Shown here: piece after piece, positions 1,585 to 27,827 of the stretch
Numbering within the stretch: the first letter of the stretch is position 1
Layout of the letters: each line of letters begins with the position of its first letter
Source of the DNA: Thermoplasmatota archaeon
Lineage (GTDB): Archaea; Thermoplasmatota; E2; UBA202; JdFR-43
Direction of reading: 5' to 3'
Assembly (NCBI GenBank): GCA_029259015.1
Contig: JAPDJQ010000092.1
Span: forward strand, 1-37,237
DNA length: 37,237 nt
Position numbers and translations under genes: made by a program
Notes under the pieces: generated by a model
Database searches by the model: none
Seen by the model: only the letters and a program-made list of their open reading frames with translations
What the model was told of the DNA's origin: nothing

Positions 1585-3314
1585 GAGTAGCGGTTATAGA
1601 CAAGGACAGATGCCAGCCAAAAAAATGTTCTCTTGAATGTATAAAATATTGTCCACGTGTAAGAGGAGGAGTTAAGGCAATAGAGATTCTGGAGAATGAA
1701 GAAAAACCAACAATATCTGAGGAGTTGTGCGTTGGCTGTGGAATATGCATTCATAAATGTCCTTTTAAAGCAATACATATTGAAAATCTGGCAGAGGAAT
1801 TGAAGGAGGATTTGGTGCATCAGTATGGTAAAAATGGTTTCCGGCTTTTTCGGCTCCCTCTGCCAAGAAAAGGAAAAGTTGTTGGATTGCTTGGAGAAAA
1901 TGGAATAGGGAAAACAACTTCACTGCAAATTTTATCCGGTAAATTGAAGCCAAATCTGGGGAGAATTGATGAGGAGCCAACATGGGATGATATCATCGAA
2001 GAATGGCGAGGTACGGAATTTGCAGAATTCTTCAAAAAAATAGCAGGAGGAAAGTTAAAAATTTCTTATAAGCCACAGTATGTGGACAAGCTGTCATATT
2101 ATAAAGGCAAGGTAAAAGACTTCATTGAGGAAATAGGAGTTGAAGGTAATGGATTGGAAGAAATATGGAATCGTAAAATGAGTGAAATTTCTGGAGGGGA
2201 GTTGCAGAAAATTGCAATAACTGTTGCAATGGAAAGAGAAGCAGATATATATTTCTTTGATGAACCCTCATCATATCTTGATATTAAAAACAGGCTTGAA
2301 ATGGGAAAGAAAATAAGGGAGTTGGCAAATGATAAGATGGTAGTAGTTGTTGAGCATGATCTGGCAGTGCTGGATTTTCTTGCAGATATAATTCATATAT
2401 TATATGGAAAGAAGGGAGTATATGGTGTAGTAGCCGGAGCGAAGACAGCAAGACATGGCATTAATTTGTATCTTTCCGGCTATTTAAAGGAAGAAAACGT
2501 GAGATTTGGAGAGGAAATAAAATTTGAGAAACATCCTCCGAGACAATTAAAAGAACAGGAGATATTGATTTCATTTGAAGGGTTGAAGAAAAAATATAAC
2601 GGTTTTGAGCTTCAAATAGAATCTGGAGAGATTTATAAGGGAGAGGTAGTGGGCGTAGTTGGCCCAAATGGAATAGGAAAAACAACTTTTGTTAAAATGC
2701 TCGCTGGAATAATCGAGCCAACAGAAGGAAAGGTAGATGCTAAAGTTAAAGTGAGCTACAAACCCCAGTACATAAAAGCTGGGGAAGGAACTGTAAGAGA
2801 ATTGTTTGAAGTTAACAAAAAGAAGTTCCATATGCTCTATGACAAAGAGGTTTTGCTGCCATTGGGCATAAAAGATTTGTTTGATAGAGAGTTAAATAGT
2901 TTATCTGGAGGGGAGTTGCAAACTGTAGCTGTTGCTTTCTGCTTAAGTATGGAAGCAGACATTTATCTCATAGATGAGCCCTCTGCCTATTTGGATGCGA
3001 AGCAGAGAATGAAAATAGCAAAGGTAATAAAAAGAATAATGGAAAAGGAGGCGAAGGCTGCTTTGGTAGTAGAACATGATGTCTATTTTATAGACATGGT
3101 TAGTCAGGCGTTGATGGTTTTTTCTGGAGAACCAGGAAAAAAAGGTATAGGAAGAGGACCATTTAGCCTGAGAGAAGGAATGAATCTTTTCCTCAAAGAT
3201 TTGGGCATTACATTTAGAAGAGATGAGGATACAAACAGGCCAAGGGTGAATAAAATTGGCTCCACGTTAGACAGGCAGCAAAAATCAATAGGAGAATACT
3301 ATTACGAGTTATGA
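1581..3314 (+). CDS. Ribosome recycling ATPase ABCE1/Rli1
   Basis: This 577-residue protein is the essential, cytosolic archaeal/eukaryotic ribosome-splitting factor. The N-terminus carries two [4Fe-4S] clusters: Cys11, 16, 20, 24 and the ferredoxin motif Cys50, 53, 56, 60. Two ABC ATPase modules follow. The first has Walker A GENGIGKT at 105-112, an SGGELQ signature and a DEPSSYLD Walker B. The second has GPNGIGKT at 361-368, another SGGELQ and DEPSAYLD. All landmarks are intact and the length is normal for the family. The start ATG overlaps the upstream stop by 4 bp (translational coupling). The stop codon directly abuts the stop of the convergent histidine kinase, with no base between. Identity is secure. 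Confidence 0.97.
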   Translation: MRVAVIDKDRCQPKKCSLECIKYCPRVRGGVKAIEILENEEKPTISEELCVGCGICIHKCPFKAIHIENLAEELKEDLVHQYGKNGFRLFRLPLPRKGKVVGLLGENGIGKTTSLQILSGKLKPNLGRIDEEPTWDDIIEEWRGTEFAEFFKKIAGGKLKISYKPQYVDKLSYYKGKVKDFIEEIGVEGNGLEEIWNRKMSEISGGELQKIAITVAMEREADIYFFDEPSSYLDIKNRLEMGKKIRELANDKMVVVVEHDLAVLDFLADIIHILYGKKGVYGVVAGAKTARHGINLYLSGYLKEENVRFGEEIKFEKHPPRQLKEQEILISFEGLKKKYNGFELQIESGEIYKGEVVGVVGPNGIGKTTFVKMLAGIIEPTEGKVDAKVKVSYKPQYIKAGEGTVRELFEVNKKKFHMLYDKEVLLPLGIKDLFDRELNSLSGGELQTVAVAFCLSMEADIYLIDEPSAYLDAKQRMKIAKVIKRIMEKEAKAALVVEHDVYFIDMVSQALMVFSGEPGKKGIGRGPFSLREGMNLFLKDLGITFRRDEDTNRPRVNKIGSTLDRQQKSIGEYYYEL

Positions 3315-5372
3315 CTATTCTGCTTTTGGAAGATAAATATCAAAAATTGTTCCCTGTTTATTGGCAGCTCTTACTTCTATATACCCCCCATAACCTTCAA
3401 CAAGCTTTTTGACGAGGTATAGTCCTAAACCACTTCCGGGACTTCCTTTCCTTTTAACTCTTGGATCAAAAATTTTCTCTTTGATTTCTGGAGGAATTCC
3501 CTCTCCATCATCTTCTATCGAGATTTTGTAAAATATTTTTCCACCTTTTTCTATTTCTTCTCCAGATATAGTTATTGTTTTGCAATTTGAATGTATGATT
3601 GCATTTTGAATAATATTGGAGAATACATTTTCAACAAGTGAATCTGCCTTTATAATTCCTTCAATAGGGGCATATTCTATTTTTATGCCTTTCTTCTTTG
3701 CTTCTTCCTCGAAATCATGTATAACTTTGGATAAAATCTCATGTAAATCCATGTATCTTAAAGATTTTTGAGTGCCTGCTTCTCTCAATTTTCTTATATT
3801 TGTAATGAGATCGCTGCTAGAATATGCAGCTTTTAAAGCACCCTTTACAAGCGCCTTTTGCTCTTCTGTAAGTGGCGTCTCTTCTAGTAATTCAAGATTT
3901 CCTTGGATAACTGCAATTTTATTCGCAACATCATGGCGAAGGAGAGAATGATAAAATTCTTTCTCCTGCTCTGCCTTTTTTCTGGCAGATATGTCTCTAT
4001 AGATGGTGAAAATTCCAACCTGTTTTCCCTCAATAAAAATTGGGGCTCCAAGAATTGATACATATACCAAGGAGCCATCCTTTCTTTTTCTTTTGCCTTC
4101 CGCCTTTATAATCTCTCCATTCATTACTCTGAGAGTAAATTGTTTCCCAATTCTTTTCTCCTCTTCTGGCAGAACGAAATCATCCAGATTTTTTCCTTTT
4201 ATCTCATCAACTGTATAACCAAATAATTCCTCAAAAGCAGGATTTACGTCTAAAATGCGATGTTTTTCATCAAGCGAAACAATTGCCTCTGGAGAACTTT
4301 CAAACAATGCCTGGAAATAGGTTTTCTGTTTTCTTAACTCCTCTTCAATTTTCTTTCTTTTTTCGATGTCTCTGATTGTTATGAAGCTGCCAATTGGCTT
4401 TTCATTCCAGATGATGGGTGAGGTATTTATTTCTGCAGTAAATTCTTCTCCATTGCATTTTCTTATTTTAACCTCCATCCCAGTTATTTTTTCTCCATGA
4501 ATTGTTTTTTTGAAATACTCACTAAACTTTTCCTGATATTCTGGAGAAATAAACTGTATGAACGGTTTCCCCAAGAGGCTTTTCTTCGTACTGTCCACCA
4601 TTTCGCAGAAATAGGAGTTTGCATAGTCAATGTCTCCGCTCTTATCTATTATACAGATTCCTTCACTGGCTGTTTCCGCCAGTATTCTAAAATCTATTTC
4701 AGCTGCAGTTTCAAGAGGTAACTTAAATTTCAAAATTGCATATAGGATGAGAGATAATGTTAAAAAATCTAGTGTTGCACCAACAGGAAATTGAGCAATA
4801 TGATAAATTTCTACCATTATTTCATAGGTGACAAAAGAAAAAAATGCATTTGCTGGTATCGCTACAAGTATATAGAAGCTCTGTCTTTTTTTAATTCCCA
4901 CGCTTTCTTTATAATATCTGAAAAGCAAAAAAGTTGAGAAAATAATAAAAAATAATCCTATCCAAGAATTTATGGCAAAAAGGAAAAAATTGTACACTGG
5001 CTCGTAACCAATCACCCTGTATTCCACATCAGTTACATAATATCCCATAGCAAGTAAGATAGATAGAAAAATTACGGGTATGTATCCAATAAGATAATAT
5101 TTTGCTTTTATATATCCCGTGTATCCCGCAGCAAAATGAAAAATAACCGCCGGGATTATAATAAGACCCAGCGTACTTATCTGAGCCCATAAAATTTCTC
5201 CGTTAGTTAAATTTGTCAATACTATCCCAACATTCCATAAAAAACTCGACAGGCATATACCCACAAGAGGAAAAACATATTCTTTTCTTGGTTTTCTTGA
5301 TAGAAGATACACTGCAATAGAGAAAAGGAATATGGAGGATACCAATGATGGAATCAAGTATAGCCCATTCAT
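3315..5372 (-). CDS. 7TM sensor histidine kinase with two PAS domains
   Basis: This 685-residue membrane kinase starts with about seven hydrophobic helices (residues 1-222), like the N-terminal 7TM domain of archaeal histidine kinases. PAS1 (about 228-340) and PAS2 (about 345-465) follow, each ending in an ITIRDIEKRKK or IYRDISARKK PAC tail. The kinase core has the H-box SLLRHDVANK (phospho-acceptor His480), N-box NIIQNAIIHS, and G-boxes DDGEGIP and GSGLGLYLV. It should autophosphorylate in response to a membrane or cytosolic small-molecule cue; the ligand is unknown. No response regulator is nearby. A TATA-like element, TCTTATAAG on the plus strand near 5392-5400, lies about 25 bp before the start. 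The gene meets ABCE1 tail to tail with zero spacing. The kinase half aligns along its length with that of the second kinase at 15800-17974. Confidence 0.92.
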   Translation of the reverse strand: MNGLYLIPSLVSSIFLFSIAVYLLSRKPRKEYVFPLVGICLSSFLWNVGIVLTNLTNGEILWAQISTLGLIIIPAVIFHFAAGYTGYIKAKYYLIGYIPVIFLSILLAMGYYVTDVEYRVIGYEPVYNFFLFAINSWIGLFFIIFSTFLLFRYYKESVGIKKRQSFYILVAIPANAFFSFVTYEIMVEIYHIAQFPVGATLDFLTLSLILYAILKFKLPLETAAEIDFRILAETASEGICIIDKSGDIDYANSYFCEMVDSTKKSLLGKPFIQFISPEYQEKFSEYFKKTIHGEKITGMEVKIRKCNGEEFTAEINTSPIIWNEKPIGSFITIRDIEKRKKIEEELRKQKTYFQALFESSPEAIVSLDEKHRILDVNPAFEELFGYTVDEIKGKNLDDFVLPEEEKRIGKQFTLRVMNGEIIKAEGKRKRKDGSLVYVSILGAPIFIEGKQVGIFTIYRDISARKKAEQEKEFYHSLLRHDVANKIAVIQGNLELLEETPLTEEQKALVKGALKAAYSSSDLITNIRKLREAGTQKSLRYMDLHEILSKVIHDFEEEAKKKGIKIEYAPIEGIIKADSLVENVFSNIIQNAIIHSNCKTITISGEEIEKGGKIFYKISIEDDGEGIPPEIKEKIFDPRVKRKGSPGSGLGLYLVKKLVEGYGGYIEVRAANKQGTIFDIYLPKAE

Positions 5373-5438
5373 TTTACAAGCTAATCCCCTAGTCTTATAA
5401 GAAATTTTATATTTTTTCTAATTATGATGAAAAGTTAA

Positions 5439-5539
5439 TGTCGGGGGCGGGATTTGAACCCGCGACCTCCTGATTTCTTAGCGAACCCTTCAGCTGCGCT
5501 TATGAGTCAGGCGCTCTAACCAGTCTGAGCCACCCCGAC
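5439..5539 (-). tRNA. tRNA-Met (CAT, elongator) with 26-nt intron
   Basis: Read on the minus strand it folds as a full cloverleaf. The acceptor is GTCGGGG/CCCCGAC with discriminator A. The D arm is GCTC/GAGC, the anticodon stem CCTGA/TCAGG around loop CTCATAA, and the T stem GCGGG/CCCGC with loop TTCAAAT. The mature length is 75 nt, and CCA is not encoded. The anticodon CAT lies at plus-strand 5502-5504. A 26-nt intron sits at the canonical 37/38 site. The anticodon stem lacks the three G-C pairs of an initiator tRNA, and the acceptor is unlike tRNA-Ile2, so elongator Met is the best call. Confidence 0.93.
5475..5500 (-). other. tRNA-Met intron with bulge-helix-bulge
   Basis: The 26-nt intron lies between tRNA positions 37 and 38. 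Loop bases 32-35 (CTCA) can pair with TAAG near the intron 3' end, with one C-A mismatch, giving the central helix between two 3-nt bulges. Inside, GCG/CGC and AGCT/GGTT pair around a GAAG tetraloop. This is a near-canonical hBHBh' substrate for EndA, which is encoded at 35994-37016. Confidence 0.8.
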
Positions 5540-5562
5540 AAACTAACTCTAATATCAATTTC

Positions 5563-21235: not shown

Positions 21236-22185
21236 TTCTCTCTTTTTACTGCAAACTCTGCCATCTCTGCCAATTTTTCTTTTGCCTCACTTTCCCTCAG
21301 CACATTTAAAGCTTCTTTTGCTTTGTTTGCAAATTCCATTGCCTTATTTTTTGCATATTCTATTGCCCCGACTTCTTCAAAAAATTTTATTATTTCATCA
21401 ATTTCTTCCTTACTTGCATCCTCCTTTCCATAATTTTTAAGCCATTGCTTATCTTCAGAATTTTTGTATGCATATAAGTAAATGAGTGTTTTCTTTCCTT
21501 CTCTTATATCACTTCCAACTGGCTTGCCAATATCCTTGCCAATAACATCCAGACAATCATCCCATATCTGAAAGGCCATTCCCAAACTCTTTCCATATTC
21601 CTGCAGCGCCTTCACTTCTTTTTCATTTCCTCCTCCAATAATGGCGCCGCCCATGGCAGCATGTTCAAACATTTTTGCTGTCTTTTTTTCAATCATTTCC
21701 AGAAACTGTTTTTCTTCCACATATTCCATTTCTTCAAACCTTATATCCAGTTCCTGTCCTTCACATATTTCTTTTGCCATCATTGCGAGATTTCTCAGAA
21801 TAGTTTTTGCAATAGCAGCATCTTTAATGTAGCTGGCAACTTCAAATGCTTTCGCAAACAAAGCATCTCCTGCTAAAATGGCAATATTTTCTCCAAATTT
21901 TTTATGCACTGCTGGCATCCCGCGCCTTTCTTCATCTTTATCCATAATGTCGTCATGGACGAGTGTGAAAGTATGGATTAATTCTAAAGCGACTGCAAAT
22001 GGTATGGCTTTTGTAAACTCACTTCCCACTGCCTCGCAGGCAAGACATGCTATTATGGGGCGAAGTCTTTTTCCTCCCGCAAATGGCAAATGCTTTACAG
22101 CATCATAAAGCAAAATGGGCTCCTTTTCGTATAGATAATTCTCTATTGCTTTATCAATGGCTTCCTTAATTTCTAAAGTGTCCAT
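21232..22185 (-). CDS. idsA: Geranylgeranyl diphosphate synthase
   Basis: This 317-residue trans-prenyltransferase condenses IPP onto allylic diphosphates. The first Asp-rich motif is DDIMD at 78-82 and the second DDCLD at 209-213; the GGKRLRP substrate block is at 37-43. The fifth residue before the first motif is Phe73, which in archaeal GGPP synthases blocks the pocket and stops elongation at C20. The product is therefore predicted to be GGPP for ether lipids. A strong ribosome binding site GGAGGTG (22191-22197 on the minus strand) precedes the ATG, which lies inside the end of fni (13-bp overlap). It is followed by the LEA14-like gene with a 4-bp overlap. Confidence 0.94.
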   Translation of the reverse strand: MDTLEIKEAIDKAIENYLYEKEPILLYDAVKHLPFAGGKRLRPIIACLACEAVGSEFTKAIPFAVALELIHTFTLVHDDIMDKDEERRGMPAVHKKFGENIAILAGDALFAKAFEVASYIKDAAIAKTILRNLAMMAKEICEGQELDIRFEEMEYVEEKQFLEMIEKKTAKMFEHAAMGGAIIGGGNEKEVKALQEYGKSLGMAFQIWDDCLDVIGKDIGKPVGSDIREGKKTLIYLYAYKNSEDKQWLKNYGKEDASKEEIDEIIKFFEEVGAIEYAKNKAMEFANKAKEALNVLRESEAKEKLAEMAEFAVKREK

Positions 22186-23183
22186 ATCTCCACCTCCTTC
22201 AGTTCATCCAGATTTCTGCAGCCAGTTAAAAACATTGCTGCTTTCAATGAACGCTGGAAAATTTCCATTTTTTCTTCTATGGAATCACAAATTAGAAAGG
22301 CGGTGGCCGCTCCTGCAGCATCAGCCCCTAGAGCAATTGCTTTTGCAATATCCAAACCATGTCTTATTCCGCCTGTTGCGATTAAGGTAATGCCAGCATC
22401 GTTGCATAGCTCTGCCAGTTCCATAATGCAATAAGGCGTGGGGATTCCCCAGTCCCAGAATATTTTTCCGAGTTCTTCCTGCACTTTATCTCCTCTTTTC
22501 TCTGCCCTATATGCTTCTACAGCAGCAAAAGAAGTGCCGCCAGCTCCTCCTACATCAATGCCAACAATATCTGTGTCAAGCAATTTTTCTGCAACTTTTC
22601 TAGATATTCCTGCCCCTGTTTCCTTAACTATAACTGGCTTCGTTAGGCTGGCTGCTACCTCCTTTATTTTTTCAAGACATCCTTTTGCATTTCTTTCTCC
22701 TTCTGGCTGAATCACCTCTTGAAGGAAATTTAAATGTATTGCCAAAACATCTGCGTCTATCATTTCTATAGCTTTATTTGCTTTTTCAATTGCGTCATTC
22801 CATTCTAAAAGCTGAGGAGCACCTATATTTGCAATTTTTAAAGGAATATTATATTTTTTAATGATGGAATAACTTTCTTCAACACTTTTATCTTCCAAAC
22901 CAGCTCTTTGTGAACCAATACCCATTCCTATGGCACATTTCTCTGCTGCCTGAGCAAGTTTTTCATTTATCAAACTCGCTTCTTCAAAGCCACCTGTCAT
23001 TCCTGCTATTATTAGAGGCATAGAAAGATTTTTTCCAAAAATTTCAATGCTTGTATCAATTTCATTGAGGTTTACTTCTGGCAAAGCATCGTGAATGAGT
23101 ATAAAATCATCCCAATAATTATAGCTATGCATTACATCTTTACCTACAACTATCTCAATATGCTCTTTCTTTCTATCCTTCAT
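22173..23183 (-). CDS. fni: Isopentenyl-diphosphate isomerase type 2
   Basis: This 336-residue FMN-dependent IDI-2 interconverts IPP and DMAPP. Family blocks are clear: RKKEHIEIV at the N-terminus, MPLIIAGMTGG, GIGSQRAG, the HLNFLQEVIQPEG substrate loop, VIVKETGAGIS, GIDVGGAGGTSF and a phosphate-binding ATGGIRHGLDIAKAIALGAD. Size and motifs are normal. It leads the minus-strand group fni, GGPP synthase, LEA14-like. A TATA-like element (23209-23218) lies about 30 bp before the ATG. It provides the allylic starter for the enzymes downstream. Identity is secure. Confidence 0.96.
   Translation of the reverse strand: MKDRKKEHIEIVVGKDVMHSYNYWDDFILIHDALPEVNLNEIDTSIEIFGKNLSMPLIIAGMTGGFEEASLINEKLAQAAEKCAIGMGIGSQRAGLEDKSVEESYSIIKKYNIPLKIANIGAPQLLEWNDAIEKANKAIEMIDADVLAIHLNFLQEVIQPEGERNAKGCLEKIKEVAASLTKPVIVKETGAGISRKVAEKLLDTDIVGIDVGGAGGTSFAAVEAYRAEKRGDKVQEELGKIFWDWGIPTPYCIMELAELCNDAGITLIATGGIRHGLDIAKAIALGADAAGAATAFLICDSIEEKMEIFQRSLKAAMFLTGCRNLDELKEVEIWTL
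22191..22197 (-). promoter_or_regulatory. Shine-Dalgarno of GGPP synthase
   Basis: GGAGGTG on the minus strand lies 5 nt before the ATG at 22185, within the fni coding sequence. It fixes the start and shows that genes inside operons use ribosome binding sites, unlike the leaderless first genes. Confidence 0.7.
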
Positions 23184-23238: not shown

Positions 23239-23520
23239 TTATTCAGTTAATTCCTCAACTTCTTCCTTGCCTTTTTCAAGCTCTTTTACCTGTTCTTCGT
23301 CTTTTTTTAGAAGCAATGCAAGAAACTCGCCTACATGGGTCTTTTCTTCATTTGCAATGTCCATCAGCACTTTTTTTATACCCTCATTTTCTGTCATATT
23401 GGCAAGCTGCTCATATAAATTTATTGCATCTAATTCGGCTATTATACCGAGACGCAATATCTCTTTATCTATATCCTCCCGCCTAACATTTTTCAAATCA
23501 ATTGGTATTTTTGATAACAT
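23239..23520 (-). CDS. Encapsulated-ferritin-like (EncFtn family) protein, no shell gene adjacent
   Basis: This 93-residue two-helix protein has the EncFtn pattern: LRLGIIAELDAINLYEQ in the first helix and IANEEKTHVGEF in the second. Glu29, Tyr36, Glu59 and His62 occupy the same relative spacing as the ferroxidase residues Glu32, Tyr39, Glu62 and His65 of Rhodospirillum EncFtn. Asp31 matches Glu34, while Glu31 is replaced by Ala28. The sequence closely resembles the ferritin-like domain fused to the N-terminus of the Pyrococcus encapsulin. Here it ends in its own TGA/TAA stop after a Glu-rich tail, and the next gene downstream is fni, so no encapsulin shell follows. It likely oxidises or binds iron. 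It has its own TATA box. Confidence 0.82.
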   Translation of the reverse strand: MLSKIPIDLKNVRREDIDKEILRLGIIAELDAINLYEQLANMTENEGIKKVLMDIANEEKTHVGEFLALLLKKDEEQVKELEKGKEEVEELTE

Positions 23521-23541
23521 AATATAAGGAATGATAAATTG

Positions 23542-23549
23542 TATATAAA
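23542..23549 (-). promoter_or_regulatory. TATA box of the EncFtn-like gene
   Basis: TTTATATA on the minus strand is centred 25 bp before the ATG at 23520, a textbook leaderless promoter. Confidence 0.65.
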
Positions 23550-23575
23550 GGTCTTTTCTTCAACTTTTTCAAAAT

Positions 23576-25098
<1,523 letters not shown>

Positions 25099-25099
25099 A

Positions 25100-25894
25100 A
25101 TGAAAAGAAGTGATGAGGTAATATTTGCTGTCATGGCAATTCTTGCAGCTATAGCAGTAATTTTCATAGCATTGCCCATAGCAAATATGCTTGCTTCTGT
25201 GGGCATAAAAGGAATTGCAAAAGCAATTGCCGATAAAAATGCCATCAATGCTATTTTAGTGAGTTTTGAGGCAGCTTTCTTGGCAACTTTAATAAGCTTG
25301 CTATTTGGCGTTCCCCTCGCCTACTTACTGGCGAGAAAGAATTTTCCTGGAAAAACGCTCATAGAAAGCATAGTTGATTTGCCAATTATCATACCTCATA
25401 CTGTGGCTGGAATAGCATTGCTAATGGTATTTGGAAGCAGTGGCTTATTAGGAGCCCCACTTGAAGAATTTGGCATCAGAATAGCTGATTCGATGCTGGG
25501 GATAACCATAGCAATGATGTTTGTCTCTGCCCCTTTCCTTATAAACTATGCGAGAGAGGGCTTTGAAGCTGTGGACCCTCGACTCGAAAACATAGCAATG
25601 AGTTTGGGAGCATCTCGCTTTAAAGCAATGGCAACTGTTACAATGCCGCTTAGCATAAGAAGCATATTCGTTGGCTCCCTCATGACATGGGCTCGTGCAA
25701 TAAGCGAGTTTGGAGCAGTTGTTGTTATCGCATATTTTCCAATGGTCGCCCCAACTTACATCTATTCAGAATATCTTCAATATGGATTGAGCAAGGCGGC
25801 GCCTGTAGCGGCTTTACTGCTGCTTATATGCGTTGTGATTTTTATTTCGCTTCGCCTCATATCGGCAAGGTGGAAGAGATATGATAAGGATTGA
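25100..25894 (+). CDS. wtpB: Tungstate/molybdate ABC transporter, permease
   Basis: This is a permease of about 264 residues with six hydrophobic helices. The EAA loop that contacts the ATPase is visible as NIAMSLGASRFKAMATVTMP. The PIIIPHTVAGIALL segment is typical of ModB/WtpB. The ATG at 25100, one base after the wtpA stop, gives the usual MKRS-type start; an ATG at 25088 overlapping wtpA by 11 bp is possible. Its end overlaps wtpC by 14 bp. Identity as oxyanion permease is strong; tungstate versus molybdate is inferred from archaeal WtpB similarity. Confidence 0.92.
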   Translation: MKRSDEVIFAVMAILAAIAVIFIALPIANMLASVGIKGIAKAIADKNAINAILVSFEAAFLATLISLLFGVPLAYLLARKNFPGKTLIESIVDLPIIIPHTVAGIALLMVFGSSGLLGAPLEEFGIRIADSMLGITIAMMFVSAPFLINYAREGFEAVDPRLENIAMSLGASRFKAMATVTMPLSIRSIFVGSLMTWARAISEFGAVVVIAYFPMVAPTYIYSEYLQYGLSKAAPVAALLLLICVVIFISLRLISARWKRYDKD

Positions 25895-26927
25895 GAATGT
25901 TTCAAAAAAATGGGATAACTTCATGCTAAGCAATATTAGCCTAGAAGTGAGAAAAGGCGAGTATTTTGTTGTTCTTGGTCCTACAGGAGCAGGAAAAACT
26001 CTTTTGCTTGAGTTAATAGCTGGATTTCATTATCCCGATGAAGGCAGAATATACATCGATGGCAGAGATGTTACTTCGCTCCCTTCAGCAGAAAGAAACA
26101 TTGGTTTTGTCTATCAGGAGTATATGCTTTTTCCCCACATGAATGTTAAAGAAAACATAGCATATGGGCTTAAAATGAGGGAAATGAAGCAAACTGAAAT
26201 AGAAAAAAAGATAGAAGAGATGGCTGAAAGCTACAGAATAAAGCATCTGCTTCATCGTTATCCAGAGAGCTTGAGTGGTGGAGAAAAGCAACGTGTTGCA
26301 ATTGCGAGGGCAATGGCTGTAGAGCCGAAAATACTTCTGCTGGATGAGCCATTGAGTGCTCTTGATCCTGAAATGAGAGGTGAAATAAGAAGGGAGATAA
26401 AAGATATGCATGAAAAAAGTGGAGTAACTGTGGTGCATGTTACTCATAGCAGAGAAGATGCCATGCTTCTTGCTGACAGAATCGCTGTAATGAACAAAGG
26501 CAAAATTCTGCAAATAGGAAAGCCGGAGGAAATATTTAGAAAGCCTGCATCAAAATTCATTGCTCAGTTTGTTGGCGTTGAGAACATTTTTCATGGAAAA
26601 GCGGAAAAGAAGGGCAATATCACCCACTTCATATGTGATGGCGTGGAGTTAGTTTCTTCCATGGATGTGCCTGATGCCAAATATGCCAGTATAAGGCCAG
26701 AGGACATAATAATTTCAAAGCAAAAAATTGAGAGTAGTGCAAGGAATTGCATAAAGGGAAGAGTTAAGGCAATCGTGGATATTGGCTCCCTCATACGACT
26801 GGAAGTGGATTGCGGCGTGGACTTTGTAGTTCATATTACCCGCGAGTCCTTTGAAGAAATGGGAATTGATGTTGGCAAGGAAATATATCTAATATTTAAA
26901 GCCCAAAATGTTCATCTATTCAGGTGA
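25881..26927 (+). CDS. wtpC: Tungstate/molybdate ABC transporter, ATPase
   Basis: This 348-residue ATPase energises the transporter at the inner membrane face. Walker A is GPTGAGKT (33-40), the Q-loop YQEYMLFPHM, the signature LSGGEKQR (131-138), Walker B ILLLDEP (151-157) and the switch His in HVTHSREDA. A C-terminal TOBE/MOP-like regulatory domain of about 110 residues follows (SIRPEDIII, GRVKAIVDIGSLIRLEVD), which in ModC-type proteins binds the oxyanion and can inhibit transport. AGGTGG before the ATG is a plausible ribosome binding site. The gene is followed after 3 bases by moaA. Confidence 0.93.
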   Translation: MIRIENVSKKWDNFMLSNISLEVRKGEYFVVLGPTGAGKTLLLELIAGFHYPDEGRIYIDGRDVTSLPSAERNIGFVYQEYMLFPHMNVKENIAYGLKMREMKQTEIEKKIEEMAESYRIKHLLHRYPESLSGGEKQRVAIARAMAVEPKILLLDEPLSALDPEMRGEIRREIKDMHEKSGVTVVHVTHSREDAMLLADRIAVMNKGKILQIGKPEEIFRKPASKFIAQFVGVENIFHGKAEKKGNITHFICDGVELVSSMDVPDAKYASIRPEDIIISKQKIESSARNCIKGRVKAIVDIGSLIRLEVDCGVDFVVHITRESFEEMGIDVGKEIYLIFKAQNVHLFR

Positions 26928-26930
26928 AAA

Positions 26931-27827
26931 ATGCTCATTGATAAATATGGTAGGCCAGTAAAAAGCATTCGCATTTCATTAACTAGCAGATGCAATCTTC
27001 ATTGTTTTTACTGCCATAATGAAGGCCAGATGGCTACAAAGCATGAAATGACAGCAGATGAAATAGAAATTTTGCTTAAAGTGGCGAGCAAACTTGACAT
27101 AAAGTCAGTTAAATTTACAGGTGGGGAGCCGCTGCTTAGGAATGACATCGTTGATATAGTTGCCAGAGCCAATAAATATATGGAAGATGTATCAATAACA
27201 ACAAATGGCACCCTCCTCGCCCCAATAGCGAAAAAACTTAAGGCAGCAGGTCTGAACAGAATAAATATAAGCTTGGATACAGTTGATAGAAAAAAATATG
27301 AAGAGATAACTGGCGAAGATATGCTCGATGAGGTTTTAAATGGTATAAAAGAGGCTTCGGCAGCGGGGCTAAATCCAGTTAAGGTGAATATTGTCGCCAT
27401 CTTGCCTATAGAAAAAATAATGGAAACTGTCAAAACAGTATGGAAGCTTGGAGCCATGCCACAGATAATCGAAATGGTGAATATTGAAAACGGCGATGGC
27501 GATGACATTTCTCATATTGAGGCATATATCGCTTCGAGAGCCATAAAAGTGAGGCATCGCCACATGCATCGCCGGAGAATATATACACTGCTCGACGATG
27601 AAGAAAATGAAAGAGAAATAGAAGTGGTTCGCCCCATCCATAACTCTGCTTTCTGTGCCGCATGCACTCGACTCAGAGTTACGAGTGATGGCAAATTAAA
27701 GCCATGTTTAATGCATAACAATGGGCTTGTGGATGTGATAACGCCAATAAGGAAAGGTGTTGCCATGGAAGAAATAATGAAATTATTTGAGAGAGCTGTT
27801 GAAAATCGCTACCCCTACTGGAGGTGA
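26931..27827 (+). CDS. moaA: GTP 3',8-cyclase MoaA
   Basis: This 298-residue radical SAM enzyme begins pyranopterin synthesis from GTP. The N-terminal SAM cluster is CNLHCFYC (Cys21, 25, 28), and the C-terminal substrate cluster is Cys242, Cys245 and Cys259 (FCAACTRLRVTSDGKLKPC). FTGGEPLLR, TTNGTLL and NISLDTVD blocks are intact. It ends in NRYPYWR without the Gly-Gly tail of bacterial MoaA, as is common in archaea. An AGGTGA just before the ATG may be its ribosome binding site. Its stop overlaps the Shine-Dalgarno of moaC. Identity is secure. Confidence 0.96.
   Translation: MLIDKYGRPVKSIRISLTSRCNLHCFYCHNEGQMATKHEMTADEIEILLKVASKLDIKSVKFTGGEPLLRNDIVDIVARANKYMEDVSITTNGTLLAPIAKKLKAAGLNRINISLDTVDRKKYEEITGEDMLDEVLNGIKEASAAGLNPVKVNIVAILPIEKIMETVKTVWKLGAMPQIIEMVNIENGDGDDISHIEAYIASRAIKVRHRHMHRRRIYTLLDDEENEREIEVVRPIHNSAFCAACTRLRVTSDGKLKPCLMHNNGLVDVITPIRKGVAMEEIMKLFERAVENRYPYWR

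Follow-up and report, generated by a model that had tools for sequence, protein, structure and literature searches.

A free-standing EncFtn-type ferritin-like protein encoded without a recognisable encapsulin shell in a Thermoplasmatota archaeon

Described EncFtn-type proteins and the gene of the window

In the standard model, EncFtn oxidises iron but needs an encapsulin housing to store it. The cargo proteins Rru_A0973 of R. rubrum and EncB and EncC of M. xanthus carry a C-terminal targeting peptide and enter the shell, whereas in P. furiosus PF1192 / PFC_05175 (5n5e, 2e0z) the ferritin-like domain and the shell form a single covalent chain. For R. rubrum EncFtn, He et al. 2016 give Glu32, Glu62 and His65 as ligands (PMC5012862). 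EncFtn relatives without a shell are already known, having been noted in 2016 and 2024. He et al. 2016 mention a 'Non-EncFtn' group, related to EncFtn but without an encapsulin sequence, which in the part of the paper dealing with the tree is named merely as a tree group, without genomic context (PMC5012862). Eren et al. 2024 report that tag-less s-FLPs were originally counted as non-encapsulated, and do not decide whether a shell houses them (PMC11202242). To the open-licence literature, the present analysis adds a genome-wide shell check, a separation from tagged and fused forms, and an operon link.

The ferritin-like protein described here (FLP) has about 57% identity (fold alignment) to the P. 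furiosus domain, with the same predicted fold and ligands, and has in common with archaeal fusion-FLPs the DXXXEEXTH motif as given in PMC11202242; unlike the Pyrococcus protein, it consists of the domain alone, and the search for a shell was negative. It is similar in fold and ligands to the R. rubrum and M. xanthus cargo proteins, which differ in being tagged, and by description it resembles the 'Non-EncFtn' group. Like the s-FLP NE0167 of Nitrosomonas europaea (3k6c; PMC11202242), it is short, has the same fold and lacks a targeting peptide, although the two are only about 25% identical (fold alignment) and s-FLPs are described as mainly bacterial and possibly encapsulated (PMC11202242).

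The FLP gene lies in a stretch of 37,237 nucleotides, which was analysed as a whole and is called the window below; the genome comprises 1.41 Mb in 134 contigs and is 86% complete. The relevant features are as follows.

22173..23183, minus strand: FMN-dependent protein consistent with fni (type 2 isopentenyl-diphosphate isomerase), downstream neighbour of the FLP gene (Pfam; 55 bp gap; no functional link shown)
23239..23520, minus strand: free-standing EncFtn-type FLP gene (93 aa; putative diiron ligands Glu29, Glu59 and His62, plus Tyr36)
23242..23298, minus strand: codons of the C-terminal predicted helix, the 'Glu-rich tail', residues about 75–93 (alignment and predicted structure; no targeting peptide)
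23541..23550, minus strand: TATA-like element CTTTATATAC, 20 nt upstream of the FLP ATG
23576..24010, minus strand: MOSC-domain protein, upstream neighbour of the FLP gene (Pfam; 55 bp gap; no functional link shown)

The reading frame runs from the ATG at 23520 to the stop codon at 23239–23241. As to the flanking genes named in a preliminary description of this DNA, fni and MOSC, Pfam confirmed the latter and gave an FMN-dependent protein consistent with the former. The TATA-like element was identical in 4/4 members of the window's close group while the flanking bases varied, from which we infer that it serves as the FLP gene's own promoter, possibly giving a leaderless transcript. Since the gene has its own TATA-like element, its expression can be explained without co-transcription with the MOSC and fni-like neighbours. 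Among the window gene and its three closest relatives dN/dS was 0.02–0.07, and 0.04–0.07 in the pairs that include the window gene, indicating strong purifying selection; the gene is therefore not a relic. The plus strand of the window at 23794–27827 encodes a solute-binding protein, a permease, an ATPase with a TOBE domain and then a MoaA-like radical SAM protein, a gene set that would suit uptake of molybdate or tungstate together with synthesis of the cofactor.

Family assignment, ligands and C-terminal tail

The 93-residue protein is a true EncFtn-type ferritin-like protein. The Pfam model EncFtn-like (PF22277) matched it at 31.6 bits against a gathering score of 27, and the closest solved relative by phmmer search of the PDB was the fused ferritin domain of P. 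furiosus (5n5e, E = 3.4e-26; 2e0z, E = 8.9e-25). The best 50 Foldseek matches in the PDB were all EncFtn-type chains with 5n5e ranked first, bearing out the likeness to the N-terminal domain of the Pyrococcus fused encapsulin that had been pointed out earlier. Two NCBIfam cargo models matched below their curated cut-offs (EncB_fam NF058679, 71.6 versus 90 bits; TIGR04535, 60.5 versus 125 bits). The AlphaFold2 monomer computed from 68 aligned sequences (mean pLDDT 95) has predicted helices at residues 14–42, 46–73 and 75–92, that is, two long helices and a shorter C-terminal helix, and the solved folds nearest to this model are those of EncFtn.

Nine residues were invariant in the 68 aligned sequences (Arg23, Glu29, Ala32, Tyr36, Glu58, Glu59, His62, Gly64 and Glu65). 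Among them are the Glu...Tyr...ExxH ferroxidase ligands, which do stand at EncFtn spacing as previously proposed: Glu29, Tyr36, Glu59 and His62 correspond to Glu32, Tyr39, Glu62 and His65 of R. rubrum EncFtn at a constant offset of 3, where we take Tyr39 to be the counterpart of Tyr36.

A better match to another family had been named in the preliminary description as a possible objection, and Pfam Rubrerythrin (PF02915) did score slightly higher than PF22277 (33.6 bits). This model represents the wider superfamily, however, and EncFtn is preferred in each of the NCBIfam, PDB and fold comparisons, so that rubrerythrin as the better family was set aside. Rubrerythrins have diiron ExxH motifs in common with FLP, belong to the same superfamily and occur in the same operons in relatives, but the classical ones are complete four-helix chains bearing a rubredoxin-like domain, whereas FLP is a half-bundle of 93 aa without a rubredoxin domain.

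The C-terminal residues 75–92 are predicted with high confidence to be helical, and the pattern EQVxELEKGKxEVEEL is conserved among shell-less relatives; conservation of the Glu-rich tail is independent of any shell, and the earlier suggestion that it is not a recognisable targeting peptide holds. In a profile search over encapsulin loci, 15/15 encapsulin-adjacent relatives ended in a TIGSL/TVGSL-type targeting peptide and 7 further relatives were fused to the shell protein. No targeting peptide was found in the free-standing relatives, nearly all of which stop no more than 12 residues past the domain end, and the window FLP likewise has neither a recognisable targeting peptide nor a shell fusion, one or the other of which would be expected in encapsulin cargo. 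It is short, without a long disordered C-terminus and with no apparent targeting peptide, as are s-FLPs by the definition in PMC11202242 and 'Non-EncFtn' proteins.

Shell search and phylogeny

In the window's genome, neither encapsulin (PF04454) nor capsid (PF05065) gave a match, an absence that is not absolute at 86% completeness. PF04454 can miss divergent shells, such as the shell half of locus L115 (just 17.8 bits); a search of the window's genome with this shell half, run without a positive control, found nothing. FLP relatives were encoded in 142 genome stretches. The best 80 of these 142 loci belong to 79 genomes, 78 of which had no PF04454 match. The sole match (L081) was phage-like, corresponding to a PHROG major head protein. 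Within Thermoplasmatota, an FLP relative was present in 39/243 genomes, with any encapsulin match in 2/39, one of them weak and holding a stop. A second sample consisted of 295 genomes from the phylum of G062, a Methanomethylovorans genome: 74/295 encoded a close relative, 6/74 with and 68/74 without a PF04454 match, and FLP showed no positive association with PF04454 in this phylum (Fisher p 0.23). These results suggest that FLP is made in the window's genome and in scores of other anaerobes without a recognisable shell, in keeping with the free-standing EncFtn-like protein without an encapsulin of the preliminary description.

The encapsulin matches inspected in genomes with free FLP were read as prophage capsids, because L081 matches the PHROG head protein, L154 adjoins a head-tail adaptor, and L148, L155 and L157 have neighbours that by eye look similar to these. 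Phage-like neighbours were seen, by eye or by PHROG match, for 5/6 PF04454-positive genomes of the phylum of G062; the sixth, G420, and L084 (G321) lay outside this inspection.

Some loci contain FLP and shell sequences in other arrangements. L115:3784–4767 is a divergent FLP-encapsulin fusion, and in the related locus L116 part of an encapsulin, interrupted by a stop, lies next to an FLP frame. L146 has a 205-aa encapsulin frame directly adjoining an FLP frame that lacks a TIGSL-type tag, representing a split fusion or a frameshift.

A tree of free, tagged and shell-fused sequences (104 rows, 97 columns; many forks unresolved) placed 73 free-standing sequences in one clade with moderate support (84/88), separate from both the fused clade and the tagged sequences, and a few divergent free-standing rows fell elsewhere. 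In the tree the window copy stood apart from the operon copies of its family, but the AU test did not reject a tree uniting them (p 0.40); the gene may have left the family's stress operon or have been gained independently. A fusion-type FLP at L110:1441–1740 ends at the domain end, an unrelated gene following after about 33 bp, and is likely a fission product of a fusion.

Oxidative-stress neighbours and proposed function

Pfam families among 122 co-directional neighbours of FLP relatives included desulfoferrodoxin (13), AhpC/TSA (13), ferritin (10), rubrerythrin (6) and SOD (3), as raw counts. If two desulfoferrodoxin genes per 1,700 are assumed, the Poisson probability of their count here comes roughly to 1.5e-21, a value that overstates the case because related loci are not independent. 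By tblastn, at least one of seven stress reference proteins was encoded within 3.5 kb on the same strand in 27/112 loci, the other 85/112 having no such neighbour in the available DNA. Four loci of the window's family or class (L090, L093, L095 and L101) have the order peroxiredoxin-ferritin-FLP-superoxide reductase, followed by a second peroxiredoxin and/or rubrerythrin, and superoxide reductase lies directly downstream of FLP in several relatives. On contig 2 of the window's genome (L129:5051–7718), the order is peroxiredoxin-ferritin-superoxide reductase-peroxiredoxin-rubrerythrin, with ferritin and superoxide reductase 1 bp apart and no FLP between; the window's FLP gene stands alone, outside this stress operon. 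Upstream of the contig 2 operon, two more rubrerythrin-family genes lie on the other strand.

Since its relatives are often found among oxygen-defence genes, its role is probably protection from oxygen and not compartmental iron storage. We favour, with moderate confidence, its being a soluble, shell-free diiron ferroxidase that helps anaerobes to detoxify oxygen and iron, the one supported of three options in the preliminary description; for the window protein this function is carried over from relatives, its own copy lying outside the stress operon. Two antiparallel subunits would complete a symmetric diiron site, and five such dimers would form an open ring, like the excised P. furiosus domain. 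The site may oxidise Fe(II) with O2 or H2O2, and in an anaerobe this would reduce both free iron and oxidant at once; a conventional ferritin, where the host makes one, would take up the Fe(III), and in hosts without ferritin FLP would act in detoxification rather than storage. The main difficulty for this reading is the behaviour of R. rubrum EncFtn, which, according to He et al. 2016, oxidises iron without its shell but aggregates and cannot mineralise it (PMC5012862), so that a shell-free version must differ or couple to a sink.

Alternatively, the FLP ring might serve mainly to load the conventional 24-mer ferritin with Fe(III), as an accessory ferroxidase. Ferritin was encoded near FLP in 16/112 loci, with the genes overlapping or nearly abutting in L016, L060, L089, L093 and L095, and a PF00210 match was present in 28/45 tested FLP genomes, among them that of the window, on another contig. 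We nevertheless regard ferritin loading as the principal role as unlikely: ferritins carry their own ferroxidase site, and 17/45 genomes had FLP without a ferritin match, many of these being small DPANN or Patescibacteria MAGs, although such absences are soft because the 45 genomes are mostly MAGs. The position of superoxide reductase directly downstream in several relatives, together with the Pfam Rubrerythrin match, would also suit a rubrerythrin-type peroxidase, whose diiron site reduces the H2O2 from superoxide reductase with electrons from rubredoxin or similar. As FLP has no rubredoxin domain, no donor was identified, and rubrerythrin and peroxiredoxins are already present in the same operons, this activity seems distinctly improbable.

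The two other options of the preliminary description are disfavoured. That FLP is cargo of an encapsulin encoded elsewhere and missed could be argued from the incomplete assembly, from the divergent shells that escape PF04454, and from the 2024 review, which argues that steric hindrance would not prevent short FLPs from being encapsulated (PMC11202242); given the lack of a shell in its own genome and in nearly all related genomes, and of a targeting peptide, we consider this very unlikely. Hardly any weight can be given to a relic of a split FLP-encapsulin fusion: in its favour, the solved structure nearest to FLP is a fused domain, that of P. furiosus, and one fusion-type relative does stand free (L110), but the large free-standing clade is separate from the fused sequences, the ligands are invariant and the gene is under purifying selection.

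With a shell-less clade whose genes recur beside those for superoxide reductase, peroxiredoxin and ferritin, the encapsulation question becomes directly testable, and a role in detoxification is suggested. More speculatively, the whole clade might be a dedicated and widespread O2/peroxide-defence enzyme, active without a compartment in anaerobic archaea, DPANN and Patescibacteria. This would go against the opinion that EncFtn is of use only inside a shell, and the encapsulated forms, fused or tagged, may have been derived from a free enzyme of this kind, a proposal that we put forward as a tentative one.

Variant forms of FLP were seen in a few relatives. Tandem FLP gene pairs occur in L053 (about 5001–5546), in L062 (the locus of G062, about 2920–3490) and at places in Methanosarcinaceae; in L053 and L062 the first copy reads HVGEF and the second HVAMF, so that Glu65 is lost in these second copies. 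In L106 and L109, which belong to one genus, a conserved hydrophobic N-terminal stretch lies ahead of the FLP domain, as if these proteins were exported or membrane-anchored.
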